The notes under the pieces are model-generated. The model ran no database searches, had not been told where the DNA came from, and saw only the letters and a list, made by a program, of their open reading frames with translations. The translations under genes and the position numbers were made by a program. 64,000 nucleotides of DNA from Tetrahymena thermophila SB210 (lineage: Eukaryota; Ciliophora; Oligohymenophorea; Hymenostomatida; Tetrahymenidae): the NCBI RefSeq assembly GCF_000189635.1, contig NW_002476157.1, forward strand, positions 558,001-622,000, read 5' to 3'. Positions 9,572-64,000 of the stretch are shown one piece after another. How positions within the stretch are numbered: position 1 is the stretch's first letter; every line of letters starts with the position of its first letter.

Positions 9572-10193
9572 GCTCTAAATAAATTTTGATTGTTTTTTGA
9601 ATTTATATTTTGATTATTTGTAATTTGTATATATTAAAATAAAAATAATTGCTTTCTTACTTTTATCAATTTCGCATATTTTTAAAACTAAAAAAAGTTT
9701 TTAAACAATTGGTTTTAAATTAATTAATAATTTTATTTATGTATTTAAAACCATAAAAAGTAAATTTTATTAAAAAATTTAATGAGATAGCCAAATAATA
9801 AATAATTTATTTAAGAAAATTATTTTTTTTTTTAATATTATTAATGTTTTTAAACGAGCATATAAACACAAAAATATTATTTGAATTTATTTTATAAAAG
9901 TGTTTTGAAAAGATAAAAAATAAAATTTAGTTTTCTTTAAATAATTTTAGTTAGAAGCATGGATTATAAAAAATAATTAGTTTATCAAGTAAATTTTAAA
10001 TATTTTTCATAAAAATATCTTAATTATGTAGAACTTTAATTTTTTATGATTAAAGTATCAATCTTCTTTTGAAAATACAATTTTATTTAATATTTTTAAG
10101 AAATTTAATATGAGTTAGTTAGTTAATATTAAGGATTTACTTAAGTATAAACAAATGAAATAACAAAAATAGTTAAATTTCTAAAATCTATAT
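9572..10193. other. AT-rich intergenic between convergent genes
   Basis: This stretch separates the 3' ends of a plus-strand and a minus-strand gene. It is AT-rich with T and A runs, and I see no gene in it. It should contain both polyadenylation regions. Confidence 0.45.
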
Positions 10194-40575: not shown

Positions 40576-41973
40576 TCAATTAGAAATTAACTTAAAATCA
40601 AATTAATAGTTAATTCTGATGATTGAGCCAAGAGTAGAACTCTTAACTTCAGTTAACCAATTAGGATAAGAATTAATCAGATCGTTAAGCTTGGTTTCTG
40701 CTATTATAAAATTAGTATTTGTGTTTTTGGATATGTAGTCAATAATATTCATTTTAAAGATGTTGCTAACGTTTCTGCTTTCAAAGTACTCTCTTACACA
40801 GGTAGCGATGGCTGAGAGAGGAACTGATGAAATCATTTGTTCTTAGTTTTATTATGCCAAAAGGAGAGTGAATTCGTCTTTTAATTAATTCTACTTTTAT
40901 TATAAACCCTCCTTAATTGTTTCTGTGAGCTTTTAAGAAATGTAAGCAGGTTACTCACTACTAGCATTTTAAGCTTGTTTTTCAGAATAGTAGAGGCGTT
41001 GCTTGAAATCAGCTAAACGGGATTCTTTCCATGACTGATAAGAACCAATATTTTCTAAAAATGACAATTCAACAAACATATCTTGTTATTTATATTTATT
41101 TAATTTCAAACTTAGTTGGTAGAGGTTTGGTTAAACGTTCATTATGGATTACATTTTCAAAATTGTTAAACCGTTGATTTAAGAAATTAATTCGCTTAAG
41201 TAAGCACAGTTTTTTCTCATCATTATTTCATCAATTTTGCTCATCAAAGTTAATAATTCCTAATTTTATGCATTTTTTAATTCTACTGCTTTTGATCCTA
41301 GTAGACTTCTGTAACGATCTTTGAGAGATCCACGGTTAAGAATGGCGTTTAATTTATTGTTACGGGCTGGACTAAGTGCTTTTTTAGTTTCATCCTTATT
41401 GCTTTGGATTTATGAAATGAGTTTGGAAACATTCTCAGAAAGAGTTGTTGATTTTTTATCATCAACGAGTAAGGATTTGACTGAATCAAATTTATTTATT
41501 TTAATGCTACATTAGCTACTTCCTTTCTTTAATTGCTTATTTTTACTGATACCCTTAATGAGTTTTAAAGTTTTAATATTTTAAATATCTTCTTCTTCAT
41601 CTTCTTCTTTATTACCTTTTAAGTGGTTTAATTTATTGTAAGGCTTTTCAAGAGTCATTTCTGATGGCATCTCATTAAAAAATGATTCATTTACGCCATC
41701 ATCTTAATCCTCAAAGAGTGTTTTATTATACTTTGAGTCAATTGGGATTGAACTGTGACTCTTCTTGAAAGATAAGAGGCGTTGAGTCATTTAACTTTCT
41801 TCGTTACAAGTTGAAGGTTCTTCCTCCAATTTGTTAATTTTTTGTTACAAATTTTAATTTTCTAAAGTGGTTGTGGAAGGAGGAATGGAGGAGCATTGAG
41901 CAGGAAGTGTAACTTCCTTGCTTTCTAGTTTAGTTGGGGTAAAGTAGAAGTATAAGTTGGTTTGGTTCATCAT
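40576..41973 (-). CDS. Cdt1-like DNA replication licensing factor with N-terminal PIP box
   Basis: Intronless frame of 465 residues from ATG 41973 (MMNQTNLYFYFTPTKLESKE) to TGA 40576-40578. I chose this start for its A-rich context (TTAAAAATGATG). The frame remains open to ATG 42249 (MSKKWRLQRYGKKIQSYL), so a form about 92 residues longer is possible. The C-terminus (AIATCVREYFESRNVSNIF, then ETKLNDLINSYPNWLTEVK) fits the Cdt1 C-terminal winged helix, where the pattern ...L..LLPDWL... is conserved. The middle (residues about 220-400) is helical. Residues 4-11, QTNLYFYF, fit the PCNA-interacting consensus Qxx(I/L/M)xx(F/Y)(F/Y), and a Lys lies four residues after it. In animals such a site makes Cdt1 a CRL4-Cdt2 substrate in S phase. 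The family call is moderate; the motif is seen directly. Confidence 0.65.
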
Positions 41974-44266
41974 TTTTAACAGCTCAAATCTGGAAATGTT
42001 TGTTGGTGTGATTTATAATTGATTTACACTTACTTATTGCTTTGTTTGTGAATGCAAAAAGATATAGCTTTTCTCTTCCAGGTTTGATCGTATTTGTATT
42101 TTATTTGTAATTAATTATTTCCTTTGATATTTTTCATTCAATTCTAATATTTATTAACGTTTTCTTCGTACCTATAAATCTTCTCTTTCCCCCTCCAAAT
42201 AACTTTAAATTTTTTTTCCATACCGCTAAAGCCTCCATTTTTTGGACATTGCACCTCTCTTAATATTACACATTTATTGTTCTCCCTAGATAGAAAACTT
42301 GCTCTTTATGTGTTCTGATCACTTTTTTAAAATTGTTTTCTTACAAATATTCAAACATTTAACGAATTCAAATTTCATTTTTTTTAGGTGGATCTAAATA
42401 TCTTTCTTATAATAATTATTTTTTCTCGCGGGCGCGCAATTAGATTATATTAACTTAAGGGTAATTGCATTCATTTGAGCAAAGAAAAAAAAAAACACAC
42501 CGAAGATTCTTAGTTTTGATCAAAAAGATTTAAAACAATTTTCAAATTTTAATTTTGTTTGATTTAAAAAAATAAATTTAAAATTAGTTTTTCTTACTTA
42601 TTTTTGACCGTTAAACTTCAACAACATCTAAAAGCAATTATTTTATCTATAAAAATTCAAGGAAATAATTTAGATTGTTTTCATATCTATTTCGCTTCTC
42701 AAAAAAAAAAAAAATTAAATTTATTTCCCTCAATTTAATAATTATTCAAATTTATTTTAATTCGACATAAATTTGACAAATCTAAACTTTAACTATCAAA
42801 TATTAAATGTTGATATAAATTTAATTTGATTTTGTTTAAATCTGCATACTTTGTTGATATTCAATCTCACTTTAGCATGTTTTAAATGTTAAAAAGTATT
42901 TATTGATTATATTTTGTTAATTATTTTTCTAAGTGAAATTTTAAAAATAGTTAAAAATAATAGAATATTTTAATAAAAATTGTATTTTAAATTTTACAAC
43001 AAATAGTTTTAAATTAGAATCAAGAATTTAGAACAATAATATTAAATACAATTTAATATATTTAAAATTAAAAATCTATATTTTATCATCATACTTTATT
43101 AGTATTAATGATATTTAAAATTAAAATTAATGATATTGATAAATAAATATACTTACAAATAAAAATTTTAAATAAATTTAAATTTAGTCTTAATTATTTG
43201 AATTTTGAATAGTTTATTTATTTAACTATACTTTGAAAATTATTTTTTACCAATTTAATTTAAACTTTATATAATAAAAATTTAATAAAATTTAAATAAT
43301 TTATCTTAGATATTTAAATCAAAATTTAAATTTAAAAGTTTAAAAATTATTAACAAAGTTGCTTTTAATAATTTTAAATTTATTAAATTAATATTGATTG
43401 AAATATTAAAATAACAATAGTCAAATGGTTATTTTATTTGTTTTTTATCATAAAATTATTATCATTAATATTTAAAATAATTTCCACTTTAATTTAATTA
43501 AATAAAGTTAACAATTTATATTGTGCTGAGAAAATTATTTTAGGAAATTAATTAAAGATATTTGTGAAAATAAAATAATTTACTTAAAAAAATAATTTAT
43601 TTAACAATCAATAAGTTTTAAAATATTTAAAATAATATAAACTTATTTAAATAGGTTTTCTTTAATTAGTATTAAGAAATAAATAAATATTTTAGTTAAA
43701 CAAAAACAAAAATATTTTTGGAAACAGTTTTAAATTCTATTATTTTCTATGCAATTATATTTTTTATTAATATGTTAAAATTTTAAATTGTTATCTTCTA
43801 TAAATTTGTAATTTTATTAATTTATTTACTCTAAAATGAAGTAGTTATTGTTGATGATTAATTCCAAGAAACCTAATAATCTGAGAATATTTTTTTACTC
43901 TCAAGAAAAATTAAAATAAAGGTTTTCTAAAGAATGATAAAAAATAAGAGGGAAGTAAAATTAATTAGATAATGTTCTTCTGCTTTTTATTTCTTTAAAT
44001 AAATATAAAAAAATTAGTTTACACTGCAATCAAAATTATAAAAAATTAAAAGAATAAATACCAAATGATTAATTTTTTAAAAGTTGATTTATCTTTTTAA
44101 TTTCTCTACAAATACAACTTTTTAACTAAAAAATGATAAATATTTATTTAGAATGAAAACAATCCAAAAATATTAATAAATATATAAATATAAAATAGTG
44201 TGAATAATGTATTGTTTTATTATTGTAATTTAATGATATTTTGATTTTTATAACATTTTTAGTGGC
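41974..44266. other. long intergenic region upstream of Cdt1-like gene
   Basis: 2.3 kb. The first 280-330 bases are pyrimidine-rich on the plus strand and open in all three minus-strand frames, so they are either leader or extra N-terminal coding. A GC block lies at 42425-42437. Beyond about 42480 the DNA is extremely AT-rich with no gene seen. Confidence 0.45.
42425..42437. promoter_or_regulatory. isolated GC block, E2F-like site
   Basis: CTCGCGGGCGCGC is 12 of 13 G/C within DNA that is about 80% A/T. Read with its flank it gives TTTCTCGC on the plus strand, one mismatch from the E2F consensus TTTSSCGC. It lies about 450 bases upstream of the Cdt1-like start at 41973 and 176 bases upstream of the alternative start at 42249. 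Cdt1 genes are E2F targets in animals. The link here is inference. Confidence 0.35.
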
Positions 44267-45973
44267 TCAAAGATCTTCGTATAAATCATATACAACTAAA
44301 TTCGGATTATTTATAAGAAATGAAGATATGTTGTTTTTGAAGGCTATTTAAAAATAAAGGGTTTCATGAACTATTTTATTGAAACTTTCTGATACTTTGA
44401 CAATCTCATTGAAATTATTATATTATTTGAAATAATTTATTATTTATTATCTTTTTTGGATATGTTTTTACTCATTTTCTATGACGTTATTTTTAAGCAC
44501 ACTGATTAGAAATAGATTAATTTCTTTTTTGTATTACTGTTCCAAAATAATATCAATATTAATGGATTTTTTTGTTTCAAGGGCTGCTAAATATAATTTT
44601 TCTGCTTATTTACTTTAATTGATACAATTGAAAATGATCTCTACATGTTAATTTACAATTTGTATCAGGAATTGATTATTATAGCAAATTGATATAAACC
44701 CTTCATTTTATTCGAGTAGCTGATTTATAATTTCAAAGTCGCTATCAAGTAATAAATTTTGTTTTAAATTACAGATATAAATTTCAAAGTGGTAGAATCC
44801 TCTAACGCATTTAATATCAATTTAAGATAAATTGGATACTGATAATTATCTATTTTAAATTTTAAAATATATCCAAATAATTGATTTACATATCATCAGT
44901 AAGCTATTAAAAATTAAAATTACTAAGTAGATTTATTTATAATCTTGGATTTCTGTAAACTCTTTTTCATGTGTTATTAAAGTTATCAATTATATCTAAA
45001 TTACTGTTTAGAAGAGAGTAAAAATTCCTACATTTATTTTATTCATCTAGACATAAAGGAGCATATAAAGTTAATTGAAGTCTTTTTTAAGTAATGGCAA
45101 CAAATAGCATAATTACCCTCCTAGGAGTAATTAATCAAGTGATCCTACTATAAAAGAATCAAAGACATTTGAAGAGCTGGATAAGATCTTTAAATAAATA
45201 ATTTAGATACTGAATAACGCAACTAGATAGGAGAGATAATTAATTTATACTATAGCAACAACAAATGTTAATGAAAATCCAAAAGAAAAGATGGACTCAA
45301 AAACAATTAGCGCAGTTTCAAAAAAATTATAATTCTTCTAAAATACAAACATCTTTAGATAATTTAGGTTAGTAATGAAATAAAAAATCAGGCTAGCTAT
45401 CAATAATAATTAATTTATTTAAGTCAAAACTGAATCATTTAGTATAAGTTAAGTCATCAAAAGTATTCCAATTAATGCAAAAAAATACCTTTTTAATTAC
45501 AGTTAACAAACGAGAGTTTTCTAAATCTAAATTAACTATTAGTAATCATATGAAAGGTAAAATAAGTTTCTATTTAATTATGATTATTCTGAAAGAGTAA
45601 AAAGAGTATAGTCAAATTATAACAAGCAGCAGAAACTCTAGAAAAAAGTCTATTTTAAATTATAGTGATTCTCAGAGTATTTTTAATAAATTAAAATCAG
45701 TTAAATTAATAAAGAAGTGAGGTTTAAAGCAAATAGAATGTCATTGTAGATGTTTTATGGATTTTGAAAAAACTCTATAGTTATTAAAATTTTAAATATA
45801 AAATCCCCCAAAGCAATTATTTTAAACAATAATCCAGCTTACTAACTAGCTCTTATTTGATTTATGATAAGTTCTTTGAGATAGCCTTTTTCATCTAATG
45901 TATAGTTGGGTTTTAGAATCTAGCAACTTGAGTCAATTACTTAGTTGTTTAGCTCTATTTAATTAGGAATCAT
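44267..45973 (-). CDS. multi-pass membrane protein, array member 1 of 7
   Basis: Intronless, 568 residues, from ATG 45973 (MIPNQIELNNQVIDSSCQIL) to TGA 44267-44269. Hydrophobic helices run from about residue 60 to 400 (FKIIALGDFIFKILITIEFF; YFFALIGILLMTQLIL; LLLIASLIFYFITNLNYLKM; TALIVFESIFSFGFSLTFVV). The family centre is DQLLLGGQLCYLLPLLKKDF, and the tail ends NNPNLVVYDLYEDL, matching the other six copies. It is among the more diverged copies. A plus-strand frame across 44969-45668 is its antisense shadow. The family has no name I can give; shape suggests a channel, transporter or receptor with a cytosolic C-terminal domain of about 170 residues. Confidence 0.88.
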
Positions 45974-46943
45974 TATGTTTGTTAATGTACTTTTTAATTA
46001 TTTTTATATTTATGAATATTTATTTAATTAAAATAATATAAATATTTATTAGCTTTTTGTAAATTTATAAAGCACAAAAGCTCTTAAAAGAAACATTTAA
46101 TATAATAATTTAATAACTCATTTACATAATTCAACCATTCAAGATTATTCCCTAATCAAGCTAATCAATTGAATAAATTTCAATTGTAGAATTCAATATA
46201 AAGTTAAATTAATTTTTCTAAATGCTCATCTTTTGTTTTTGTTGCTGTAAAATTATTGCTAATTTATTTTAAATTTTAAAACTGCGTTATAAATTCATTA
46301 TTATTTTTCTTTTGAATTAAAATCAGAAATCATTAGATTCGAGTTATATTAGAGTAAAAAAAATAATTCTAATTAATTTTGATATTTAAATAAATTTAAA
46401 TTTTAAATTTCCGTTACAACTGCACTACTGTTAAGTAAGGAAAAATTCTTTCTATAAAGGATAGTTTTGATAATAAAATAGAATAAGGTGAATTCATTAG
46501 CTTATTACTCAGTAAAATTTATGCGATTATATAAAAAAAATATAAAAACTAAGTAGATTATAATTAATTAATTGATAGGAAATATTTATGTAGATTTTTT
46601 CTATTGTTAGAGGAAGTAGTAAAGTAGATATCAAAGGTTGGCTTTTTAAACATGCTTCAAATAATATTCAAAAATATTCAATTAATTTAGATTTAATCAA
46701 TTCTCTATTTATTTTTAAATTTGCTACCTTTTTTATTATTTTCAAGTAAAATGATAATTTGATATAAATTAAATTAAAATACTTTATAAATAAAATACAA
46801 AATAAAACAGATTTATGTTTTTTGTTAATTTTTTGGATAAAAATCATTCAAATTATGATTTTTTATAAATAAATTTATTATAATTAAAAGTTAAAGAAAA
46901 ATTTCATTGAAATCATTTTTTAAAGATGAGTTTGTAAATTATT
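45974..46943. other. AT-rich spacer in the membrane-protein array
   Basis: Spacer between array members 1 and 2, holding the promoter of member 1 and the 3' end of member 2. It is AT-rich and no gene is seen. Confidence 0.45.
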
Positions 46944-48695
46944 TCAGTCATCAAAAAGGTCATAAATTAATGAAGTAGGATTATTATACAGGAGTGGAGA
47001 AATCTGCTTATTAAAGGCGTTCATAAAGCAGATTAAACTCTCTTTGTTGTAACTCTAAAGAATTTATTCAACTTTTACATAGTTTTTTAATGGAAGCAGA
47101 TTTTCAATAATCTAACTCTTCTTATTTATACTTATTAACTCTTCCTTGTTTACCATATTTTTTAGCTATTAAAAGTTAAATTTTACTACAAGTTGTTTAT
47201 CTTCTGTTAAATTTTTGCTAAGTAACACATTTATAGATTGGCTCTTATTAGTGCTTACTAATTCTTAATAAATCTAATAACTTAATTATAGGCATTTGGA
47301 GTCTTAAATTTCCATTTAAAAGTTTCCGTACTAGTTAATTAGGATGAGAGATTATTTGAATATTATTTATGTATATCTTTTATTTTCTCTCATTACTTAA
47401 GCTATAATTTCAATATTTTTTTTATCTAGCTCAAAATGAGAAGTATTATACAATATCAAATTAACAATTGAGTTTTTCATATTGTTTATAATTGAAAAAC
47501 TCTCTTTATCTACAAATGTCAATTAACTTACATAACTAGATTTCTTATACTGGGCTATGTAAGATTTTAAAATGGCTATAAAGCTATTTAAGACAAACAA
47601 GCCTAATTAGATTTCTTAAACAGAATACTCTTACAAAAGATTGCTTTCAGTAAAAAATAGAAATCCTAAATTAATAAAGTAATAGATGTAGAAGAGGACT
47701 TAATTTATCTTATTAAATTTGTTAAAGTAGATCATGTCTATTTAGTTAATGTCTTTTTGCATGAGTGGAAGTAAAAGACTTGTTTTACATCCAAAGAACA
47801 TTTATTCAACTAAACTGATTGTTCTAGGGTCAATAATTTCAGTGCATTAAACTTGCTCTTTGACTATGATTAAACTCAGAAAATAAAGGATACAAGCAAC
47901 AAAGATTATACTTTTTATTTCTAATATGTAAAAGCAAAATAGAATAGACTAGCAGAATTAGAAAGAAAGCTCAATAATATTAGCTATTATGTGTAAAGCT
48001 CTTTGTTTTGAATATAAAATACAAATCTAATAGTAGCTACTGTTTACATAAATAAATGAGACACAATTCCAAATTAAAATTGCCCCGAATAAAAATCTAT
48101 TTAAGGAATCATCAGTTGCAATATTTAAGTCTAAAAGAATAAATATTTTAATTACTGAGAAAAACCTTCTAAAAAAGAACCAGCTAGTTATTTAATTAAA
48201 TTATTTTTTAACATCTTCAATTTCTAATTATTAAAAGCATTGATTTTTCACGATTTAGTGAAATTTCTTTGTTTACTTTATAAAATAAGAAAAATCATCT
48301 TGGATCAAGATCTTCATAAATATTTAAAATTTTTGTTATGCAGTCAGAGTCAAATTTGTGTACAGTGTTTTATTTACAAAAGCTGGTGAGAATGTGATTG
48401 TGTGGAAAGACATGATGCTAGTTTACATTAGAATACAAATAAAGAGATTTAATAAAATGCATGAGTCACTTTCATAATAATATAAGTTTATAAAATAGCA
48501 TAGGACTACTAAAAATCTAGCTACAGAGTCAAATTAGTAGATACATTTGTCAACAGTATTCATATCATTAATTTTTTCAACTACTCTCATACATCTTTAA
48601 ATGAACATCCCAGTAGTATCCTAAAATTTAGGGTTTTCATTTTATTAAACTTTAATTTTTAGTGGAATTTCCTTTGGAGCAATTTCTAAATCCAT
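46944..48695 (-). CDS. multi-pass membrane protein, array member 2 of 7
   Basis: Intronless, 583 residues, from ATG 48695 (MDLEIAPKEIPLKIKVQQNE) to TGA 46944-46946. It is the longest and one of the most diverged copies. Membrane helices include SVARFLVVLCYFINLYYY, LNLFICILMQTSIMSFHTI, FFGAILIWNCVSFIYVNSS-type and IIFVACILYFLSLIIV. The family centre reads EQMFFGCKTSLLLPLMQKDI and the tail PTSLIYDLFDD. A cytosolic C-terminal domain of about 180 residues precedes the tail. Downstream of it on the same strand is member 1; upstream lies the unrelated amidotransferase-like gene. Function is unknown. Confidence 0.88.
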
Positions 48696-50488
48696 TTTGC
48701 TAATTTTTTATTTTTTTAATTTTAAATTAATTATTAGTCATACTTATATGAATATTCGATCCATAAAAACAATAATAAAGGATAAATTTGAGTTAAAATT
48801 GTTAATCATATTTTTTAATCTGATGATTTCAATTATGTTATACTATAAAAAAAGTAAATCATTCTCTAAATTTCTAAAATAATAAGTAAAATCTTTTATT
48901 TAATTTTAATTTTTAAATTAATTTACTTCTAACTTTTAACATTTCAAAATTGTTTTATTATTTATTTTTAAAGAAAATTAACAACTATGTTAGTTATTAT
49001 ATAAATTTTTTAAGATAGACAATCTTTTACTTTTAACTTTTACTAGTAATTTATTTGCCTTGTCAGATTGAGCCCACCTTATAATAAATACTTTTTATTT
49101 ATTAAATCATTAAATTATGCAATAATGTAAATATCTTATATCATTACATACCTTATCTCTTTTATTTTAAGGTGGTTAAATGACATAATTCAGCCTATTT
49201 CATTCATTTTAAGTCATTTGAATTTATGTTTAGCAAGTAGTTGCTTTGAGTATGTAGAATAATCAGAAAAACTCTAAAATTATCAATGTATTAGGTTTTC
49301 TGTAAAAAAGAATTTCACTATTCTTTGATAAAAAAATCAAAGAAAAATGTAAATTATTTTAATTTTTAAAAATTAACTTCAAAAAAACAAAATATTTTTA
49401 ATTTAATTTGCTTTGAAGGAGAAGTTTATTTAAAAAAAGCTAGAGTAAATTTTATTTATTTGATTAATTCTAAATACAAAAATATTTATTTTAGCCACTA
49501 AATTATATAATTTATATTTTGCTTTAAATATATAAAAATCTTGAAAATTTTGAGAAGTGATAAATTGATAGCTGAATATATTAAATGCAAATTAAATATA
49601 TTAATCTAAAAGTTAAAATTATATATAAAATTCATTACTTGATACTATAAATATTCGTATGCAAAATAACAAGAATAATTAGGTTATAAAAAATTTAATT
49701 AATTATTTTTGATGGATGGATAGATAGATGACACAATATTAATAATGCATTAAAAAATAAATATTAAATATTTTTACAATTGGAATTGCTCTAATATTAT
49801 TAATACGTATTTTAAACCAATTATATAAAAAATGCATTATATCTAAATTTTAAAACAAATGTAGCTTGGTTAAGCTATATTTTTCTACTTATCAAATAAC
49901 TCTCCAAAATTTAATTAATAAACTATAAATTCCAAATATTGTCTTAGACAAATATGAAGGTTTCAAATCTCGAAACATTAATTATCACTAAAAAGTATAT
50001 TTTTGTGGCTTAAATAAATGGCTATTTTTACTTTTCATATATTAAATAGCTGTAATATCACTTTGGAACTAATTTTATACTTAAGAAATGAGGTAGTAGA
50101 ACTATTTATTTAAATGACTGCTTTGGTCTATTATATTAATATAAACTAATTAATTTATTAGATACTAATTTATTTTCAATTTACAAAAACCTTTTACTAG
50201 CAATATTTCAATGACGAAATTTTAATTTAAAGCAGTCTTTAATAACCCTTGGTTAAGTTTTACACTTTTATATTTACACGAAACACTTATCATTTATTAA
50301 AGCACAATTGTTTAGAGTATAATTACAAATTTATTAAATTCATAACAAAAAATTAAAATAAATAAATTTAAAAAAAATATTAAATTATTTGTATTTAAGT
50401 TAATAATAATTAAATTTATTTTATAAACACTAAATATCAATATATTATTAAAAATATTTTTATTCTTTTTTAATAAAATGTTATTATT
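48696..50488. other. AT-rich spacer, no gene; small repeats
   Basis: 1.8 kb of AT-rich DNA between array member 2 and the amidotransferase-like gene. It holds a GATG/GATA microsatellite (49711-49730) and a 9-base inverted repeat (50116-50124 with 50229-50237). A plus-strand standard-code frame at 48697-48882 is very hydrophobic AT-rich noise. There is no trace of an eighth paralog in this gap. Confidence 0.45.
49711..49730. repeat. GATG/GATA tetranucleotide microsatellite
   Basis: The run GATGGATGGATAGATAGATG is five tandem GATR units in intergenic DNA. It is a simple repeat with no gene attached. Confidence 0.8.
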
Positions 50489-51747
50489 TCAAGATGCTAA
50501 AAATTTCTTAAGCTGAGCATTTAAATACTTGTTAGAAATGTAAGCTTCTTAGCTGAAGCTGTTAATTGCCTTTTATACTATTTCTTGAATTTCTGGAAGG
50601 TTTTTAGATTCATCTAAAATCTTGAAGAGAATCATTTTATTGAACTCTGGATGGAACTAGAATGTAAGTGCTCTATTTCTGATAGACATTCCCTCTATCT
50701 CTACTTTATCTGAAAAAGAAATTAACTTAGCTTCTCTTGCTAACTCATAAACATAATCACCATGGCATTTGATAGAGTAAAAAGGCTAGGGTAGAACTTT
50801 GCTGAGATTAAGTTTATCATTAACATCAATGTCGTTGAATTTAATTTAATCTCTAAATTTGTAAAAGTTTTTATGAGGCATTCTAGAAGCTTTTCCACCA
50901 CATCCATGACCAACTGCTTGATGACCCCAGCAAACTCCAAGTAACTTTTGATCCTATTTTGTTAAATAAAAAGATAATTTTAACAGATTTTATTGAAATT
51001 CAATTATATTACATTTTCTTATTCAGGATATATAATTTTGTTAAAGATATCATAAGAGAAAGGCACCCAAGGCATAGAGGTATCATAAGCATCATAATGG
51101 CTTCCTGTAATAACAAATCCTTTAATTTTTTTAAAGAGCTCTTCTTCGAATGGTTTCATTTCTAATAAATTAAATGTTATCCATTTTTAGTTCTCACCTT
51201 GCAAAAAACCCTAAAAAAGTCCTTCATACATATTTACCCAATGTTTTTTGTCTTCTGAATTTAAAATGCAAAATAGAGTCTTTTAAGCTTTTAAATTTTA
51301 CTTTGCATATTCTATTATATTGTGATCTTAGAAGAATTACTTTGTTTATTATTACACATTTTCTGAATTTAATTCAGCCTTATGAAGTGGAAGCTTTTCT
51401 TCGAAGAATTGATTGTAATTTATATAATAAATCTTGAAATTTTATCCATCTATTAAAGTGTCGCAGTCATTAATTTCTTTCAATATTGCTGAAAATTTGA
51501 AGAAGTGCTCATCTGAGTTCAATAATTTTATGTAATCTTCTTAATTATTCACCTCATAAGAGTAAATTTTTGAGTATAAACCTCTAGCTAAAGCAATGTT
51601 GAGAGAAGGGTCAAGGTCCTCAGACAATAAGTCTAATTAGATGTGATTAAGCTATCCAGTTGTCTTATCTTAATCTAAATAGAAATCTAAATTTTACTGT
51701 TGATCAGTTTATCTGTAGAAAATTGCAGATACAAATTAGCTAGTCAT
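50489..51747 (-). CDS. class I glutamine amidotransferase-like protein
   Basis: Two exons (51747-51013 and 50953-50489; intron GTAATATAATT...AAAATAG) give 399 residues, MTSQFVSAIFYRQTDQQQNL to KKFLAS. Residues about 155-385 form a class I glutamine amidotransferase domain. They include KTLFCILNSEDKKHWVNMYE, then IKGFVITGSHYDAYD (oxyanion region), then GVCWGHQAVGHGCGGKA with nucleophile C253, then FYSIKCHGDYVYE, then FQFHPEF with H346 and E348 completing the triad. The conserved Q344 is encoded by TAG. The layout resembles plant gamma-glutamyl peptidases (GGP) and related stand-alone GATase1 proteins, which act on glutathione-type gamma-glutamyl bonds; the substrate here is unproved. The N-terminal 150 residues are an extension I cannot assign. 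The gene sits inside an unrelated membrane-protein array. Confidence 0.92.
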
Positions 51748-52861
51748 ACTTATTTTGAATTTTAATAATTTTATATACTCCTTTTACTAATGATTAAATC
51801 TTTTAATGAATAAGATAGTGATATTTATTCTTTATAAAGTTAGATTCTTTATTAAATCTGTTGTTTTTCTATTAGATATTTTGAAATAAATCAATCAGTT
51901 TTCGATACTTTTTGACTTCTATTGACGTAAAGATTTTTAAAAATGTGAAATTACTAGAAAGTAGCTATAAATTTTAACAGAATTATTTCTTAAAAAAATC
52001 TAAATAAATGTCTAAATAATAAACAAACAAAAAGATCAAATTATAATCAATATGACATATTTAAAGTTATCTAAGTATTTTTTATACTACCTATTTTATT
52101 TCTTTGGGTAATATGATCAATAATTTTTTGAAAAATAGCAAATGGATGAAGTTCATTAAACAAAAAAATCCAAAGCTTATAACATAAAATTTTACAAATA
52201 AATTTATAATTATTTATTTAGCTGTTTAAAATAATTCGATTTATTTCATTTTTGAAAAATATTTATATTTATATCAAAAATATTAAATTGAATAAAATTA
52301 TATCATATTTTATTTTCTTAACTAATACAATTTACCAAATATTTCATTTTCATAATGTAAATATTTGATTTATGTTTATTTATTTTAGCTTTAGTGTTTT
52401 TTAGTAGTTTATACTTGATACTTATAAATATCAAAAAAATAAATTACATTTAAGTATTATTAATTTTAGCTATTTTAGGAGAATAAATAAATTTTTAATA
52501 TTATTTATCATTCCAACAACAAAAACCTTTTATATAATTAAAGAGATTAATTTAAATGAACCTTAGAAGCTCCTTCTTTTTTTTGGATGAACTATGGTAT
52601 TTTTATATGTTGTAATAAATAATCTTAATAATAAATGCATTTTAAAAAATAATGAAAATTTAATTCATTAATTAATAAATTTAAATTTTAATTTTTATAT
52701 ATTTTTGAATAAATTTAAAAAATAAATAAAGAATTTGCTAATTATATTTATAAATATAGTGATGATTTAAATATTTTAAATAGTAAATAGATAAGTTATT
52801 AGTGTATCTCAAATATTTTAATTTAACTAACCTCTCTCTATAAATTAATTTGATTTATTTT
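51748..52861. other. AT-rich spacer, no gene seen
   Basis: 1.1 kb between the amidotransferase-like gene and array member 3, AT-rich, with no coding-like stretch or paralog remnant found. Confidence 0.45.
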
Positions 52862-54553
52862 TCATTCCATATTATCATAGAGATCAAAAAGTATCAAACC
52901 AGGGTTAATAATTTAAAATATGGATATATTTTATTTGTATGTAATTATGTGCAAAATGATTTGTTAGTAGTTATTTTCTTTAAGACATTTAATTAAATCT
53001 TTAGAAATATTGGTATTGTAAAACTATTTAGTTATGTCAGAATTTTCTATGTCGAAGATGCTTTAATCAGTGATTGATGTTTATTTTAGAATTAAAAATA
53101 GCTATTCTATACACTTCTTATCTATTAACTGTTATTCCCTCAAATTTAAATGTAAGCTAAGTTTTTTTGAATTTTTTAACATAATTGTGTAGGCTTAGAG
53201 TAGGCAAGAAGAGTTTAAAGAGAATATGCGCATAGTAGAATATCCATTAATTTATTGTAAGCTAAACTTCTTATCAATATAAATGAAATCAAATTAATTT
53301 TTAAAATCTATGTAATTAGCTAAATTATCATTTTATTTAAGGTTTTCTTTTACAAAAATTACATTTCTACATTTTTAAGTAGATAGTTAGGCATCTATAT
53401 CTGAAATAGATTAGACATATTGCGATTTATTTTGGACATATAGTTTTATCACGTATTATAATTTAAATAAAGCAATTAGGATATAATAGAAGATAAGTAG
53501 AAATTGAATCACTATTATTGATTGTGGTAATTAATAACTATCCTACCAGTAAAATAAGCAGCAAGCTATTATAAAATAGAGTTAGCTAGAGCAATATTAA
53601 GCTAAGTTTTTATTGTTTTAAAATATTATTTCAAATTATACGATATCATCGTTGTGTAAAGGAGAAAAATATATTAAATTGTGACCCATAAGTATTTGCT
53701 AAAATATATTAACATGAAGCGGGTTGTAAATATCTCTGTACTATAATATGCAGCTTAAAAAGCAAATATAGACAAGCATAATAGCTACAAAAGCGAATAA
53801 CTGAACCAAGTTAACAATAATTTAACAAACATAGCAATATGATTGAATTAAGCAAAGTGCGGACTCAATGAATGTAATTGCTTTTTAAAATAGAGTTTAT
53901 TTCTTTTGAAAAATGAAAATATTAATGTATAGCGTGTGTAGTATTAAGTATTGAATCGAAAGATAAGCTAATATACCAATGTAAAAAATAAGTTTGCAAT
54001 CCTGTTGGTACCTTACTACAATCATGATATAAACAATAATTGAATGAGCTTTTATCAAAATAAAGAGTTTTTTAGTACTGAACCATTTAATGAGAAGGTG
54101 ATAGTATTTATATTACAAAAGGTTTTCATTAAAGTTTTGATGATCTTAAGTTAGTTCTGTATTACAAAACCTTAGGAAATAAATGTAGTCTTGATAGAAA
54201 GCAGACATAAATAAATTTGATATGATGTGAATGAAAATACTTTCTAATGATTGTTTCTATTTATTTTTTATGAGGTAGCTTACATTTTATATTTAAGTAA
54301 AAAATAATTAAATCATGTAGATTATAAGAATAAATCTTATATTATTATTAAAATCATCAGTCAATAGTAGAGTTATAAGAGCAATCACAGATAAAAGCTC
54401 AAAAAAAAAGATAATTCCAAATAATTTTTTATGCTATAATATTTATTTTAAGCAAGCTCTGTAGGTGTTCAGCATAAATCCATTTATTTAGCTATAATTT
54501 TGAAAAATACCTGCCTATCTAATGCAAGTATAATTATGAAATTAATTATTCAT
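52862..54553 (-). CDS. multi-pass membrane protein, array member 3 of 7
   Basis: Intronless, 563 residues, from ATG 54553 (MNNQFHNYTCIRQAGIFQNY) to TGA 52862-52864. About ten hydrophobic helices span residues 50-390 (LFGIIFFFELLSVIALITLL; LLIKWFSTKKLFILIKAHS precedes one). The family centre is QQILMGHNLIYFSPLHNDDI, followed by VQFEIIFQNN. The tail is NPGLILFDLYDNME. It is the sister of member 4: in the last 79 residues the two agree at 64 positions by my hand count, and their 5' flanks also match. The close copy points to recent tandem duplication. Function is unknown. Confidence 0.92.
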
Positions 54554-54799
54554 TTGTTTTGTTTTGCTTTATTTTTAGGTCAAGTATATCTTTTTGTTTG
54601 ATATAATTTATTAAGTTTTAAATTTATAATAATTTATGGAATCAATTATACTTTATTTAATACAGTAAATACAAAAATATAAATTTATTAATTATCTTTT
54701 TTAACTTACAGCGCTGAATTAGGTATAGGCTGTAAGCAGCAGATAATTTTAATTTAATGTTATTTTTATGGCATTAATTTAATTTAATTTATTTATTTA

Positions 54800-56488
54800 T
54801 CATTCCAAATTATCAAAAAGGTCGAAAAGAATCAAATCAGGATTGATAATTTGAAACATAGATATGTTTTATTTGTATGCGACTATGTGTAATATGATTT
54901 GGAAGTAGTTATTTTATTTAAAGCATTTAATTAGATCTTAAGAAATATTGATACTGTTAAACTATTTAGTAATGTCAGAATTTTCTATGTTGAAGATGCT
55001 TTAATCAGTAATAGATGTTTGTTTTAAAATAGTAAATAGCTATTCCATACTTTACTTAGTTATTTATTATTCCGTCAAATTTAAATGTAAGCTGAGTCTT
55101 TTTGAATTTTTTAACATTATTGTGTATGCTTAGATCAAGCAAATAGAATTTAGAGAGAATATGTGCATTGTAGAATATCCATTAATTTACTCCAAGCTAA
55201 ACTATTTATCAACATGAATGAAATCAAATTAATTTTTAAAATCAATATATTGTGATAGTCTATCAGATAATTTAAGCTTCTCGTTTACAAAAATTACATT
55301 TCTACATTTTTAAGTCAAGGCTTAAGCATCAATATCTGAAATAGAAGTAACAAATTGCGATTTACTTAGAATATAAAGTTTTATTGTGTAATATAATTTA
55401 AGTAAAGCAGCCAATATAGAATAGACAATAAGCATTAATTAAATAACTATTATTAAGTAAGGTAATTAATAGTCGTCATAGAAATAAACTAAGTAGCAAG
55501 TTATTACGAAATAGAACTAGCATGAGCAAAATTAAACTAGATTTTTATAATTTTAGAAAATTATTTCATATTGTGCGATATCCTTATTGTATAAAGGAGA
55601 AAAGTACATTAAATTTTAACCCATAAGTATTTATTGAAATATATTAATATGAAGTGGGTTGTAAATATCATTGTATTATAATTAGCAGCTCAAGAAGCAA
55701 GTGTAGACAAGCATGACAGCAATAAAAGCGAATAACTAAATCACATTGAGGATGATTTAACAAACGTAGAAATATGATTGAACTAAGCAAAAAACAGATT
55801 CAAAGAATGTAATTACTTTTAAAATGAAATTTTGTTTCTTTTGAAAAATGAAAATATTAATATACATTGTATGTAGGATTAAGTATTGAATAGAAAGATA
55901 AGCTAATAAGCCAATGTAAAAAACAAGTATGTAATTCTGCTCACTCTTTACTACAGTCACGATGTATATAAATATCATATGAGCTTTTATTAAGGTAAAG
56001 AGTTTTTTAGTGCTAAACCATTTAATCAGAAAGTGGTAGTATTTATATCTCAAAAGGTTATCATTATAATTTTAAGAATTGTAATTTAGTTCTATCCTGC
56101 AAAATCTAAGGAATAATATATAGTCTTGATAGAAAATTGACAATAAAACGTTTGAAATAATGTAAATGTAAATATTCTCTATAAGGTGCTATTCTTTTTT
56201 TCTTTTGTAATAGCTTCCATTTTGAATTTGAATAAAAACTAATTATATAGCATACACTATAAGAATAAATCTTATGTTATTAGAAAAGTCATCAACCAGT
56301 AGGAGAGTTATCAAGACAATAGTAGACAATAGCTCTAAAAAAAAAATAACCCCAAGTAATACTTTATGCTATAATATTTATTTTAAACTATTTCTGTAAG
56401 CATTCGGCATAAATCCATCGATCTAGCTATAGTTTTTAAAAGTACCCACCTAGTGTATATCAGCATAGTCATCTTATTGATTATTCAT
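54800..56488 (-). CDS. multi-pass membrane protein, array member 4 of 7
   Basis: Intronless, 562 residues, from ATG 56488 (MNNQQDDYADIHQVGTFKNY) to TGA 54800-54802. Membrane helices include VLLGVIFFLELLSTIVLITL, NIRFILIVYAIQLVFIQIQ, ILVFYIGLLAYLSIQYLILH, QLFAFIAVMLVYTCFLS and LPYLIIVIQLMLIVYSILAA. The family centre is QQILMGQNLMYFSPLYNKDI, then AQYEIIFQNY. The tail is NPDLILFDLFDNLE. Only 246 bases separate its stop from the start of member 3. A piece of this gene is visible in the standard code at 55757-56053. Topology suggests a cytosolic C-terminal domain with no recognisable catalytic motif. Confidence 0.93.
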
Positions 56489-56527
56489 TTGTTTTATTTT
56501 ATTTTGTTTTACTTTGTTTTATTTTAA
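56489..56527. repeat. degenerate TTTTA/TTTTG pentamer run
   Basis: About seven imperfect pentamer units directly abut the start codon of array member 4. Member 3 has a shorter version of the same run at the same place, so the repeat has probably changed length since the two genes duplicated. Confidence 0.6.
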
Positions 56528-57188
56528 GTTGAAATAAATCTTTTTGTTTGATAACAATTTATTAAAATTTAAATTAATAAATAAATAATTCATAGATACC
56601 TTAAAATAGAAAAGTCAATTCTTTCTATACCAAAAATAATTAATTAATTTCTAATAAAATAGGCTTATTTTTACTGAACTGAGTAAGATCAAGTATATCA
56701 TATGAGTCTTTAAAGATCTTTTATTAATTAGAGTACACTTTTTATTTACATTCTAAGTATTAATCAGAACTCTTATTATCTCTTGATATATAACTTATAT
56801 TTTTATATATTAAATTAGTTTTATTTTATTTATTTTTTAATAATTAAAACTACGAAATAGTTGAATTGGTTTTTTCAAAAATGAATTTTACTTTTTTTCA
56901 CAATAAATTGTTTTTAAAAATATTTATTTTAATTTGTTTTCTTGGTATTAATTTAAATATAAAATTATTTAAACAATATTATAAATTTTTACAGAATAGT
57001 TTAAAAATATATTAAAATGTGTAATCAAAATATTTTGAGAAATGTTCAGGGAAAAAAAATATAAAAAAAATATTATGATAATTTGAATATTATTTTATTG
57101 TTACAAACTATTAATAAAAAAATTTATGAAACGCAACAAACAATTTAAATATTAGCAAAATTTGTCCCAAGTAGTTATAATTTTTAAA
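56489..57188. other. AT-rich spacer with pentamer repeat
   Basis: Spacer between members 4 and 5. Its first 40 bases are a TTTTA/TTTTG-type pentamer run (56489-56527). Beyond it is CTTTTTGTTTGATAACAATT, which has a counterpart upstream of member 3. The rest is AT-rich with no gene. Confidence 0.45.
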
Positions 57189-58883
57189 TCAATTGTCGTG
57201 TAGATCATATGCTATCAATTACGGATTTATTATTTGATATTTAGATAATAATTTATAATATGATGTTAAATTCAAAATAGTCACTTCTGAGTTGAATTAT
57301 TTTAAAAATCCTAATAAATCTTTATAATAATTTTGATTTCTAAATGATAAAATGAGATCAGAATTTATTAATTATATCTTTTTTTAGTCAGATATAGAAA
57401 TTTATTTTAAGCAATCAAATATTTTACTACAAACTTCACTGTTAAAATGTTATGGTTGTTCTATTTGCACAATTTCAACTGTTATACAAACAGATTTTGA
57501 GAGAAAATACCTAAAAAGTTAGCTTATTTCTTGAGATTTTAAGTCAATAATCTTGAATGTACAATATCCATTAATAAACTCGATATTTATTTGGTTTATA
57601 AAAGTTATTTACAAAAACTAAGGCTGTGAGCTTAAGATTTTCAATAGTTTCTTAAAATCATTTTATTTTAAATCATAATTTAAATTAAATATAATCTTGC
57701 ATTTTGCATTAAAATTCAATTAGTCCAATTCATCTAGTGAATTCAAGTTATAGATTTGGCTTTCCTTTTTAATTCTTTTTATTAAAAAGTATTTGCTTAT
57801 TATTTACAATCCATTTATTAAGCAAAATATTATTTACATAATTATTAATTCAATAGGGAAATTTTTGGTGTTAAGATAAAAAGTGATTATGCTTATAGCA
57901 ACAAAATAGATCTAAGAGATAAAAAATTAAAACTAATTCCTTTTATTTTCTATTATTGTTTCATATTAAAATAAATCGCAATTGTAAAGTTAGGAAAAGA
58001 ATGTTATCTTAAAGCCCATATAGATTAAAGCTATGGAGCTAACGTTCATAGGATTAAACACATATTTTACTTGGTACTATTAGCAGCAATAATATTAAGT
58101 TATTTGCTAAAAGGCAATCAAAATTAGTAATGCATATATTAAATATATGCTATAAAATATTAAATATATTGTGAAATATGCCTAAACAATTTCTACTGTT
58201 AATTCAAGGGCTGTAAACAGCTGCTAAAAAAGAGTCTATCGTTTTAAAAAAACAAACATGTTTAGATAAAAAAGATGGATTATTATATTAATCAAAGCAT
58301 TTATCAATAAGTACCCAATCATCACATAAAAGACATAGTCTCTATTACCTTAAATGACTATAAATATATTAAGCACTAGAGATCGAATAAAAATAAAGAA
58401 CATCTTGATAATAAATTTACTAACTAAAAAATATATGAATCTTTTAGAAACTATTTCTTTGTCAAACCTTCTATTCTAAATTTCTTTCTATTCTATTATA
58501 CAAAATCTAATAAATATTAGTAGATCAAGAGACATTATAGAAAGGACTAATGTTGAAAGAGCATAAATTAAAGGTTTGCCAAGTGGTGAGCTAGTTTTTT
58601 TATAATACAAGCAATTTTGCATAAATTAAAATATGGCTGAGAATATCTAAACTACTATAAAAGATACAAAGCCGTCTAATTTATTAGAGAAATGGTAGAA
58701 ACATATTAATGATATGCAAAATATACTTTCTAAAAGTGAAATAATTATAAACAAAATCTTGAAATTATTTATATTATCTAGCGCCTTTTTATATTTATCC
58801 TGAATAAACCCATCTATTTAAAAGCAACTGAAATATGACCCTGCTTAATTCAAAAGGATATCATTTACATTATTTATATTCAT
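57189..58883 (-). CDS. multi-pass membrane protein, array member 5 of 7
   Basis: Intronless, 564 residues, from ATG 58883 (MNINNVNDILLNQAGSYFSC) to TGA 57189-57191. Helices include FKILFIIISLLESIFCISLI, YLLINALINIIIHLFYLNMF and IFYSIYLIYALLILIAF. The family centre is YMGFKITFFSQLYNCDLFQY, then ETIIENKRNQF. The tail is NPQLIAYDLHDN. Its centre is closest to member 6 (both MGFKI..., LFQYE), so members 5 and 6 form a second related pair. It shows the usual cytosolic C-terminal domain and no known catalytic motif. Function is unknown. Confidence 0.91.
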
Positions 58884-59864
58884 TTTTATTATTATTATTA
58901 TTATTAATTTAGCTAGTTAGTTATTCAGTATAAATACTATTATTTACTTTTACTTATTATTGAATTAATATTTGATTAATTTTATAATTTTTAATAACTC
59001 AAAACTTAAGTTTTTTAATAAGTTTGTTCTAAAATTATCAAATTATTTTAATTTTGTATTTCATTTTTTAGAAATCCTATTTTATAAAATCACAAAAAAA
59101 TAAGTTTCCATGAAATGAATTTAAATTATTTATGAGACAAATTATCATAAAGAATATTAAATTTTTTATAATTAGATTCGATTTTCACCATTGCAAATTT
59201 AAATACTGTTCAAAAATTAAATATAAATTTTTTGAAAACTTTTATATAGCATATTTATCAAATAATCTATAATTTACCCTAGCTCCTCATTAATTAAGGT
59301 AATCACTCACTCTCTCCTCCACCTAACTTTGGAATTTTCTTTTTAATATATATGATTTTAATCAATCTTCAGTTGGCTCAGTACCTTTATCGAATTATAA
59401 GGTATAAGCAAAATAAGATAAAAAAGAAAATTTTAATAATTGAAGTAAAAACATAGCTTTTTCTCTAAATACTCTAATGTTTTTATTATTAATATTTAGC
59501 AAGTTTATTATATTTTTTATATTTCAAAAATAATTAAACATATTTACTGTAAAAAACTTAAAAATTATATTGTTATTTTTATGAAGCATTCATATTTCAA
59601 TACAAAAAAGTAAATATTTATATAATTTTTGATTATTATGTTTATTAAACAAAACTAATTTGTATAAAAATTACAAAAAATATACACTTAATATTTAAGA
59701 TTAAAGTAAATTGTAAAATAATTTAGATTTGATGATTAAATAGTCAATTTTATGTTCATTCTTCATAATATTATATTTGATATTATCTTCTTTATAGAAA
59801 CGTAGAAATCAAAGAATTATAAATTAAATTGCAAAGTTATATCTAATATTATATTTTACTATTT
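58884..59864. other. AT-rich spacer with ATT microsatellite
   Basis: About 1 kb between members 5 and 6. An ATT trinucleotide run (about 58887-58906) lies directly upstream of the member 5 start. A slightly GC-richer patch near 59280-59330 (CTCACTCTCTCCTCCACC) shows no coding frame I can support. Confidence 0.45.
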
Positions 59865-61559
59865 TCAGATATCAAAGAGATCATAAACTATATTAGAAGG
59901 ATTAACGAACTAGGTGAAAGAGATATACTTATAAAACGTGACCAAGTTTAGAACGATATTTTCCACATTAAATTACTCCAAGAAATTTTGAAGATTTAGA
60001 AATTATTTTTAATTATGAAGGACCAAGAGCAGATCAGAGTCTCTAATATTAAACTTTACTTAATCTGTTATGGATATTTACCTAAGACAAGAAAGTATTT
60101 TTGAGCATATTTAACTGTTTATAATTAAATCTTGATTTAATTGTTCGATTTAAACTGAAAAAAATTATGATTTTGATATAAAATAACCAAAAAACTCGCT
60201 AATTTCTTCAGAACTTAAATCAAATATTTTCATCCTACAAAAATTATTCACTGATTCAATAGAGAATTAATTAAAAAATTTTATCTAGTAAAATTAATAG
60301 TTGAAATTTGAGTTTTGATATTTAATGAATTTTTAAAAATCACCCTTTTGAATTCTACTTTCAAAATTTATAGACAATCTACAATATGATTTAGGGACTA
60401 CTTAGGTAATTTCTTCTAATGAGTTAAAATTATTAATACTACACTATTTAGTCATTTTTATTATTAAAATAAATTTAATTATGAAAAATACTCCAGTGAA
60501 TCCTCCAAAAACAATCAATAAGTTAGCTATAGGTTAAGGAAAAAATCCTTAAAAGATTTAAAATACAAAAGCATAAATTCCTCCAATATAAATATTGGCA
60601 AATAAGAGAATAAACTAATTCTTCTTGTTTTAAATTAGCATTTCATACTAAAATAAATCACTATTGTAAAGAGAAGAAAGGTAGGAAATCTTAAAACCCA
60701 TCAAGATTAAACCAAATATAGATTAATTCATAGGATTGTATAGTAAATTAATTTTGTAAGATTTAAAGTAGAATGAAATTACTTGTACTGCAATCATCAT
60801 AATAAGAGTAATCTATATCAAAAAAATGAAGTATATGTAGATCGACATAATACAATATGATTAAGATATTTCGATTAGTATCTCAAAAACGGTTAAGATT
60901 TACTGCTTTGTAGATTATTTTACTGAGAAAACAAAAAGATTTAAATACTAAAATTATAAGAAAATCATAATTATCATATTTAAGATGATGTAAGCCAGTG
61001 TATAATAAAAATATTCATTCACAGCATTATTTAATACGATTAAAGTGATAAAAAAAACTGATTTAACGAAAACAAAAAATATTTTCACAATAAATCTTCC
61101 TGCTAATTTCAGAACCAATTTCTAAACTAAAATAATCTTTTCAGTTTTTTTAACACTTTAATTCCTCTCAATCTTACAATATCTTAAAAACAGAAATATA
61201 TCTAAAGTCAAAGCAGAAAGTATCAAATCAAATAGAAGGTAAGCCCAAAAGTTTCCTATTATCTATTTAGTTCCTTAATAATAGTTGCAATTTTGATAAA
61301 AAGAGATTAAGGTTTGTACACCTAAAATAGCTATTAAACCAATAAAGGCATTAAAATTTTTAAAGTATTACAATACTATAGCAGAAGTGCAAATTAAAAG
61401 CTCTAAAAATGCAATTAATTGATACAGTCTTTTCCTAGAATATATCTAGATACATACTTGGCTATACTTATCCTATGCGTATCCATCAATCAATAATGAA
61501 TTAAAATAAATGCCAACATTGAACCCCTAAATCTACTCTATATTTTAATTATTGTTCAT
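59865..61559 (-). CDS. multi-pass membrane protein, array member 6 of 7
   Basis: Intronless, 564 residues, from ATG 61559 (MNNNQNIEQIQGFNVGIYFN) to TGA 59865-59867. Helices include FIGLIAILGVQTLISFYQN, YLLFDLILSALTLDIFLFL, YTLAYIILNMIIMIFL and LIQITLIMMIAVQVISFYF. The family centre is LILMGFKISYLSSLYNSDLF, then QYEMLIQNKKNQF. The tail is NPSNIVYDLFDI. It pairs with member 5 by its centre. One further segment, FPQPIANLLIVFGGFTGVFF, is a glycine-containing helix not obvious in the other copies. Function is unknown. Confidence 0.91.
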
Positions 61560-62626
61560 AATTATATTTTAATGTTTCTTTTTAGAATTAAATAAAAGAA
61601 CTCTTTAAAAAAAACAAATCAACAAAAATATTAATTATTATTTTTTAGTCAAAACAAATTTCTTTGAAATTAATAATAATAATATAGACAGATAAATATT
61701 ATAAAAATAATATGAACAGTTCATTTATCTTAAATTTCTACTTAAATAAACTTAAAAAACAAAAAAATTTCTATATAAAATTTGAACAGTTTTGTTGTTA
61801 AAGTAAGATACATACTTTTCCTTTATTTTTTCAAACAATTTTCTTTGAAATTAAAAATAATAAATATAAAGTAATCTATATCCTTAAAATAATCTGAACA
61901 ATAATGCGTTTGTTTAACTATTCTAAATAAATTAACTGATAAAAGAAATCAAATATTCCTAAAAAAAATTAAATATTATTATATTTATTGAATACTAAAG
62001 TAAAGCATAGCAATAGATACAATCATACTAAAATATGCTTTTATTTTTTTAAATTTTAATTTTCACAATCAAAAATACTCTCATCTTTTATTCATAAATT
62101 AAAAAGGTGGTTATTAATTTACATAAGTGAATTCATAATTTAAAATTACCCCAGAATTTTAAATATACAAAGTAGCAAAATATGAATCTAAAATGTTTCT
62201 AAATCATTAAAATGTATAAGTTAAATGTTATTCATAAATAGATATAGATTTAAATTTTAAATATTTAGTCAAAACAATTTAGTATAAACATTAAGTAATT
62301 CCAATTAAATAAAAAAAATTTTTTTATAAAAAAATAATTAATTTAAATTTTTGTATTATTTTTGTAAGAAATATAAAATTGAGTGTTTTTATTTACTAAT
62401 TAAAAGCATTCTAAAAACTTAACAAAAATAAATAATTTTATTATGCGAAAATAGTATGAATAAATAGTTTAAAAAATGGTATAAATATTTATAAAGATAT
62501 TAAATTAAATACTAATTTAGTAAAGTTTTATAAAAAAACATAGAAATAATAAGTGATAATAATTTAGATAATTATCAAAACCAATTTATTTACAAGATTT
62601 TATAGAGTATTTTTTTTTAATTTTAA
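61560..62626. other. AT-rich spacer, no gene seen
   Basis: 1.1 kb of AT-rich DNA between members 6 and 7. No coding-like stretch is found. Two short similar segments (near 61660-61690 and 61840-61870, each with TTTCTTTGAAATTAA and AATAATA) suggest a small local duplication. Confidence 0.4.
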
Positions 62627-64000
62627 TCAATAATTTGATTCATATAAATCAAATAAGATCATTGAACTGTTAAGATATTGATATTGAGATAAATGATTGT
62701 AATAGGCTATAGTTGTTACCATTATTTTTTTATAACTATATTAATTTAAAAGTTAATTTAACTATTTATAATAGTTTTCATTTTTAAAATATTTAATTAA
62801 ATCTGAATTTTAGATATTCTTTTTAACTTAATCATCAAGAGAAGCATTCTTAAGAAAATTGAAAAGGAAGGATTTAGCTTAAGTACTACTTGATTAAATT
62901 AAGTTTTTATTTTTATGGTTTATACAAATCTAAAAAGATGAAGAATCTTTCATAAGCTCATTGAAAACTTTTTCTAGGCAAGCAGATTTAAAATTATTAA
63001 TTTCTAAAATTCTGTAATTAAGAATTTTAATAGCTTTAAATTGTCCATTCAAGCACAAGTAAAATTGTTTACAATCAATTTGAAAATATTTTTCAATTTG
63101 TATCCAATCTTTTTCTTCTAATTTCTATTCAGTATAGATTTAAAGTTTTATTTTTTTAGAAGATAAATTCTCGCCATCAAGTTATTAAAGTTTTTCTACA
63201 TAGTAGGATTTATCTTCATAGAAAATTTTTTTGATTTGACGTAATTTTATAGGAAGTAATGTCATCATTATTAAAAGTAATATAACCTATAAAATTATTA
63301 AATATTAAGGAAAGACTTATGCTTACTAATAAAAGACTAAAATAACGTTAACTAAGAAATAAATTTGCACTGTTGAAAATTAAATAATGTTAAAAACATT
63401 ATTAAATATCATTTCTTGTTAGTTTAGATCACGATTACAAAGACTTGAAACATAGGTAAGCTTTTACCCCATAAAAATCTACTGAATAATATCAACGCTA
63501 AGATTATTAAAATATCCTTAGTTCTATAACTAGCATTTTAATATCGTTATATACAATATAACTAGGCAGACAGCTGTAATCCTTAACTCAGCAAAGTAAA
63601 TTGCAGATATGAAATAGCAATAAGATTAACCATATTGAGCTGTTAGTTCAATCAGAGTAAGCAAATCAAACCCAAAAGTTAATTTTTGTTAGAATACAAA
63701 CGTCTTTAAATAGAAATGACTTAAGATTATAAATAAAGCACTTGAGTAAGCTAGATAAATAATTAGTATACTTTTGTTAATGTTCAAAGCATGTATCTAG
63801 TCTAAAATTAAAAAACCTAAATAGATGTAGCACTTAAAAGTTAAGTAGAACTTCCTCAAAGTGTGCCATTGAATTAGTTAGCTTTAAAGAATCTTAAGAT
63901 TTTTGAATTATATTTTTTTCTATTCAAACAGTGTAACCTATTTTATTTGAACTTTGCAGTTTTGGTAAAAAAGAATGAAATCTACTTACAGAAAGCTATA
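62627..64000 (-). CDS. multi-pass membrane protein, array member 7 of 7 (5' end outside window)
   Basis: Open, intronless frame running from the window edge to TGA 62627-62629; the visible 457 codons are the C-terminal four fifths. Helices include INKSILIIYLAYSSALFIIL and SYCYFISAIYFAELRI. The family centre is QQIFMGQKLTYVSSLCNRDL, then NQQEMIFNN, and the tail is LNSSMILFDLYESNY. The start and first helices lie beyond 64000, and more copies may follow there. Function is unknown. Confidence 0.88.

Follow-up and report, generated by a model that had tools for sequence, protein, structure and literature searches.

Seven paralogous genes on the minus strand of a 64-kb window of the Tetrahymena thermophila SB210 genome encode membrane proteins for which an XK-type fold is predicted with good support. 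The most likely reading, to which we give about an even chance, is that these XK-fold proteins are regulated lipid scramblases with an alpha/beta C-terminal domain. The window, i.e. the whole stretch of DNA analysed, lies on contig C332 of one 101-Mb genome of 445 contigs and was considered together with its adjoining flank; in the open reading frame (ORF) listing under genetic code 6, extended into the flank, the genes (A1 to A7) span positions 44267-64363. At least ten genes of the family are present in the genome: the seven array copies, a pair on contig C7 and one distant gene on contig C308.

Predicted membrane domain

In the model of the whole A5 protein, helices were found at residues 42-65, 69-96, 104-137 (broken), 142-178, 183-211, 218-245, 249-266 (low confidence), 283-310 (broken), 314-337 and 344-374. 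This corresponds to the XK layout, in which eight helices cross the membrane, four per repeat, and each of the two repeats has one more helix that enters it only in part. XKR9 is described as two related repeats of this make-up (PMC8298096), and the inserted helices are located between transmembrane helices (TM) 2 and 3 and between TM6 and TM7 (PMC10495444). The five best rows of the fold comparison all belonged to a single family, XK-related, and behind them the Z score falls from 15.8 to 8.1; residues 29-371 of the model were aligned with residues 7-342 of XKR8. A fold search of BFVD gave nothing coherent (best E 0.23).

The original prediction had counted about ten hydrophobic helices. Ten segments were indeed obtained in the family average at a low threshold, whereas stricter scans of single proteins gave 5 to 8, and in the model two of the ten are only partly inserted. 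The shared central motif pointed out at that time proved to be the second of these inserted segments. Charged positions kept in all ten members are an acid at 52, D120, a base at 160, E227, D303 and K364 (A5 numbering). The first of them, E or D in every member, lies in TM1, where an acidic residue is also a feature of XKR proteins (PMC10495444, PMC8298096). A conserved E..Q pattern of TM5, at first suspected to be the XK signature, was dropped as an argument, as the structural ranges put it elsewhere.

Comparison of the two halves of the family profile gave a best alignment of 79 columns, in which positions 52 and 227 face each other, as do 120 and 303 (P 0.02). The score was reached by 2/150 block-shuffled controls and by none of 150 fully shuffled or 150 reversed and locally shuffled ones. 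Only the cut between the halves was taken from the model, the alignment itself being independent of it; it offers modest evidence for an internal repeat, in the register expected for an XK fold.

Several results weigh against the XK assignment. Foldseek returned E 0.17 for the A5 model, which is of middling quality, is based on a shallow alignment and has a low predicted local distance difference test score (pLDDT) in the TM6 region. Excerpts of PMC8298096 describe characteristic acids in a hydrophilic TM3 of XKR proteins, whereas in the array family every TM3 column is acidic in fewer than six of the ten members, and the residue is basic at position 160 in 10/10 and at position 167 in 9/10 of them. 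The XK-related profile PF09815 matched 0/9 scanned members at E 10 (the C308 gene was not scanned singly). The proteins might instead be a separate helical membrane family (a transporter, channel or receptor) that resembles XK by chance in a shallow-alignment model. We consider this improbable: the middling model, its weak TM6 region, the Foldseek value and the missing profile match speak for it, yet the five best rows come from one family, with a steep fall in Z behind them, and a weak internal repeat lies in matching register within the sequences themselves.

Comparison with known families

The closest known counterparts of the array proteins are XKR8, XKR9 and XKR4 of the animal caspase-activated scramblase family, which share the predicted fold, helix order, partly inserted helices, TM1 acid and a conserved end after the last helix. 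The array proteins differ from them in giving no profile match, in having a basic instead of an acidic TM3, and in carrying a domain of about 190 residues in place of a short caspase-cleaved tail. The VPS13A partners XK and XKR2 have the same predicted membrane fold, the structure of XK being itself a prediction; XK has a VPS13A-binding hairpin, and the two proteins are physical partners in animals (PMC9436381). Such a hairpin is not predicted in the A5 model, which has no strand between residues 96 and 142. Since the TM3 acids, the PF09815 match and the hairpin all fail, we do not file the array proteins as XK-related members and describe them as having an XK-type fold.

The original prediction recognised no known family; this held for profile searches, and structure prediction points to an XK-type fold. 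Pfam scans of family members gave weak matches only, the strongest being to EAL (E 0.008) and confined to one member; nothing was found for the array proteins in the PDB by sequence or in NCBIfam, nor any relatives among viral contigs, and three members searched against PHROGs gave a single match (E 0.13). The PDB, Pfam and NCBIfam queries included A4 without its first residue and, in one Pfam scan, A1 with two extra leading codons. When the genome was searched with PF09815 at E 0.1, the sole response came from contig C212 (19.5 bits vs. a cut-off of 24.8, best candidates scored). This gene (L034), XK-type by Pfam below the cut-off, matches XKR9 of the PDB over 46 residues (E 0.0017). It differs from the array genes in being split over frames and in having a charged, repetitive tail, and shows no detectable sequence relation to them; hhalign of the array family against the XK-like exons of the genome gave no signal. 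Among the matches listed for open-licence literature on XK-related proteins or scramblases in Tetrahymena, ciliates and protists, we found no description of the array family.

C-terminal domain and proposed mechanism

The last helix is followed by an alpha/beta domain of about 190 residues, somewhat longer than the roughly 170 first proposed, with six invariant columns across the seven window proteins. For the domain of A4, modelled by itself, entries for SiaC, RsbS or anti-sigma-factor antagonists occupied 7/8 best rows; SiaC is, we assume, among the STAS-fold proteins. These rows make up the likeness of the array proteins to SpoIIAA, RsbS and MlaB. Foldseek gave a best E of 0.17 for the domain, and Pfam-A STAS entries matched 0/9 members at E 10. 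A STAS-like nature of the domain is a tentative assignment to which we give rather less than an even chance. Residues 507-564 of A5 had pLDDT under 50, and the tail was not placed by the model.

XKR8 and XKR9 have a C-terminal tail in a cytoplasmic groove or pocket that keeps the protein inactive, and activation is ascribed to its being cleaved off or released (PMC10938166, PMC8298096); caspases switch on three of the nine human XK-type members (PMC8298096). Among the residues lining the XKR8 groove are Y261 in helix 8 and F274 in the loop after it (PMC10938166). Aligned ranges, which are not a residue-level structural alignment, place the second inserted segment of A5 near XKR8 residues 260-280, i.e. 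near these groove residues, and therefore the conserved end motif and this segment are a candidate contact. In the array proteins, the membrane domain would provide the path for lipid head groups, and the C-terminal domain, ending in [YF]DL[YFH][DE], would block the cytoplasmic side until freed by a signal. The folded domain would then stand in for the caspase-cleaved peptide and follow the logic known from the short XKR8 and XKR9 tails. Lipid scrambling, suggested by the fold, has in our judgment an even chance of being right; autoinhibition by the tail, drawn from the analogy with XKR8 and XKR9, is a more doubtful proposal. Equally speculative is the wider suggestion that the family may be a separate ciliate branch of XK-fold scramblases, not recognisable by sequence, in which a STAS-like domain with a YDL-type end replaces the caspase-cleaved tail and allows reversible, signal-controlled scrambling, with differently tuned copies in one array.

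The XK fold is reportedly shared whatever the function, which itself is often elusive, according to excerpts of PMC8298096, and the array proteins may have the fold and be scaffolds, receptors or subunits in which the C-terminal domain is the chief working part, comparable to those XK relatives for which no activity has been demonstrated. A TM3 without the characteristic acids and the invariant residues of the domain itself fit this view, whereas six charged positions kept throughout the family suggest that the membrane part itself does something; we regard it as somewhat unlikely, and regulated scrambling as the better account.

Array layout

Coordinates are collected in Table 1. Code 6 translation, alignment and low ratios of nonsynonymous to synonymous substitution (dN/dS, see below) bore out the original prediction of seven paralogous membrane-protein genes in one orientation. 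Each copy reads as one uninterrupted frame between its ATG and its stop and aligns full-length with the others, so that their single-exon structure also stood.

Table 1. Coordinates of the array genes and of the features of A5 in the window
Feature	Positions	Strand	Description
A1	44267..45973	-	568 aa; ORF listing, alignment, tree
A2	46944..48695	-	583 aa; ORF listing, alignment, tree
A3	52862..54553	-	563 aa; 72% identity to A4
A4	54800..56488	-	562 aa; C-terminal domain modelled by itself
A5	57189..58883	-	564 aa; whole protein modelled
A6	59865..61559	-	564 aa; closest array copy to the C7 pair, with 58% identity
A7	62627..64363	-	578 aa; window holds up to 64000, 5′ end at C332:622363
XK-fold membrane domain (predicted)	57768..58799	-	A5 residues 29-372; in the model, eight helices span the membrane and two are partly inserted
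Second partly inserted helix (predicted)	57954..58037	-	A5 residues 283-310; shared central motif; D303 in 10/10 members
C-terminal domain	57192..57761	-	A5 residues 375-564; possibly STAS-like (weak likeness), low confidence past residue 506
Tail motif [YF]DL[YFH][DE]	57195..57209	-	A5 residues 559-563; 10/10 members

Successive copies are separated by 970, 4166, 246, 700, 981 and 1067 bp. The 4166-bp gap between A2 and A3 contains an apparently split gene (50632-51747, minus strand), so the array is interrupted once and the seven neighbouring paralogs are not strictly tandem. This gene shows a likely intron bounded by GT..AG, and its motifs are those of what we take to be a class I glutamine amidotransferase or gamma-glutamyl-peptidase-like protein; its unspliced frame gave no Pfam match over cut-off. 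There was no eighth copy among frames of at least 250 residues in the 16.6 kb past A7, nor did the genome searches list one there. Directly downstream of the final stop of the array, on the same strand, lies a single frame of 565 residues (40576-42273, minus strand) for which Pfam gave no match at E 0.01. In a spot check, the claim that most neighbouring genes are split fitted the 50632-51747 gene, with its apparent intron, and a WD-repeat-like gene outside the window that is broken over frames, but not the long single frames 5618-9571 and 40576-42318. Elsewhere in the window, an ORF at 26429-27619 (plus strand) matches PF03302, the profile of Giardia variant-specific surface proteins (E 4.2e-20), and one at 36206-38791 (minus strand) has RING and TRAF/Sina-type zinc-finger matches, mostly under Pfam cut-offs.

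Family size, relatedness and selection

The ten members are a lower bound, from genome searches with A3, A2, A1, C308, A7 and A5 as queries; the C-terminal domain alone recovered 8/10 of them and nothing further. Pairwise identity within the seven array proteins is 18-72%, and identities are 18-39% except for A3/A4 (72%) and the set of A6 and the C7 copies (58-99.5%). The tree groups A1, A2 and C308, pairs A3 with A4, and joins A6 and the C7 copies within the A5 group; A1, A2 and C308 are on long branches, and the program warned that their grouping is unsure. The C7 pair is 99.5% identical and lies within a duplicated block: the two pieces (G000:C7, L011 5092-9793 and L013 650-5071) are separated by about 15 kb, share 97.9-99.4% identity and each hold a family gene with an alpha/beta-hydrolase-like neighbour (named by eye). 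The duplicate pieces are either a recent duplication or an assembly effect.

In five computed pairs dN/dS was 0.14-0.34, rough values given a dS of 1.4-2.4 in three pairs and only 8 differences behind the C7 ratio. As nonsynonymous change is far below synonymous change, chance ORFs are excluded. The picture from these sequence comparisons is of an apparently old array under purifying selection, neither a recent nor a hypervariable expansion. We propose that it arose through old duplications and that an A6-like gene was later copied to the other contig, or the reverse; tandem duplication is stated to be frequent among Tetrahymena species-specific genes (PMC6564038). The role first suggested for a lineage-specific expansion of this kind was that of chemoreceptors, channels or variable surface functions. 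We consider chemoreceptors or ligand-gated channels like insect odorant and gustatory receptors, or variable surface proteins, very improbable: there are ten averaged hydrophobic segments and not seven, the XK rows score about nine to ten Z units higher, and the low dN/dS is found in all five pairs.

Code 6 fits the family. Across the ten members, in-frame TAA/TAG stood opposite CAA/CAG glutamine at 3.8 times background; lysine was the commonest partner by raw count, with an enrichment of 1.6 times, and glutamate was enriched 2.1 times.

Genomic context and significance

Seven places in the genome score over the VPS13 N-terminal cut-off, and anoctamin-family matches occur on six contigs (C394, C220, C113, C81, C443 and C184). 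With these and the C212 XK-like gene present, the XK-fold proteins would be one of several kinds of lipid-moving protein at work. At the C212 XK-like place (G000:C212, L036 3032-4593, about 667.0-668.6 kb), a VPS13 N-terminal gene lies about 2-3 kb downstream on the same strand (7465-9582, about 671.5-673.6 kb); this neighbourhood may or may not be due to chance. Tetrahymena VPS13A is cited, by title, as a phagosome-membrane protein needed for phagocytosis (PMC8325632), and one scramblase candidate, not tied to the array family, is reported from T. thermophila ciliary vesicles (PMC12029339).

A nameless row of membrane proteins thus becomes a set of genes with a specific, testable activity, lipid scrambling. 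XK-type scramblases have been studied in animals, and ciliates are not known to have caspases. If our reading is true, it would point to a fold much older than caspase-driven apoptosis, and perhaps to an equally old C-terminal cytoplasmic switch, and Tetrahymena would offer an easily grown model for the control of membrane lipids in phagocytosis, mating or vesicle shedding.
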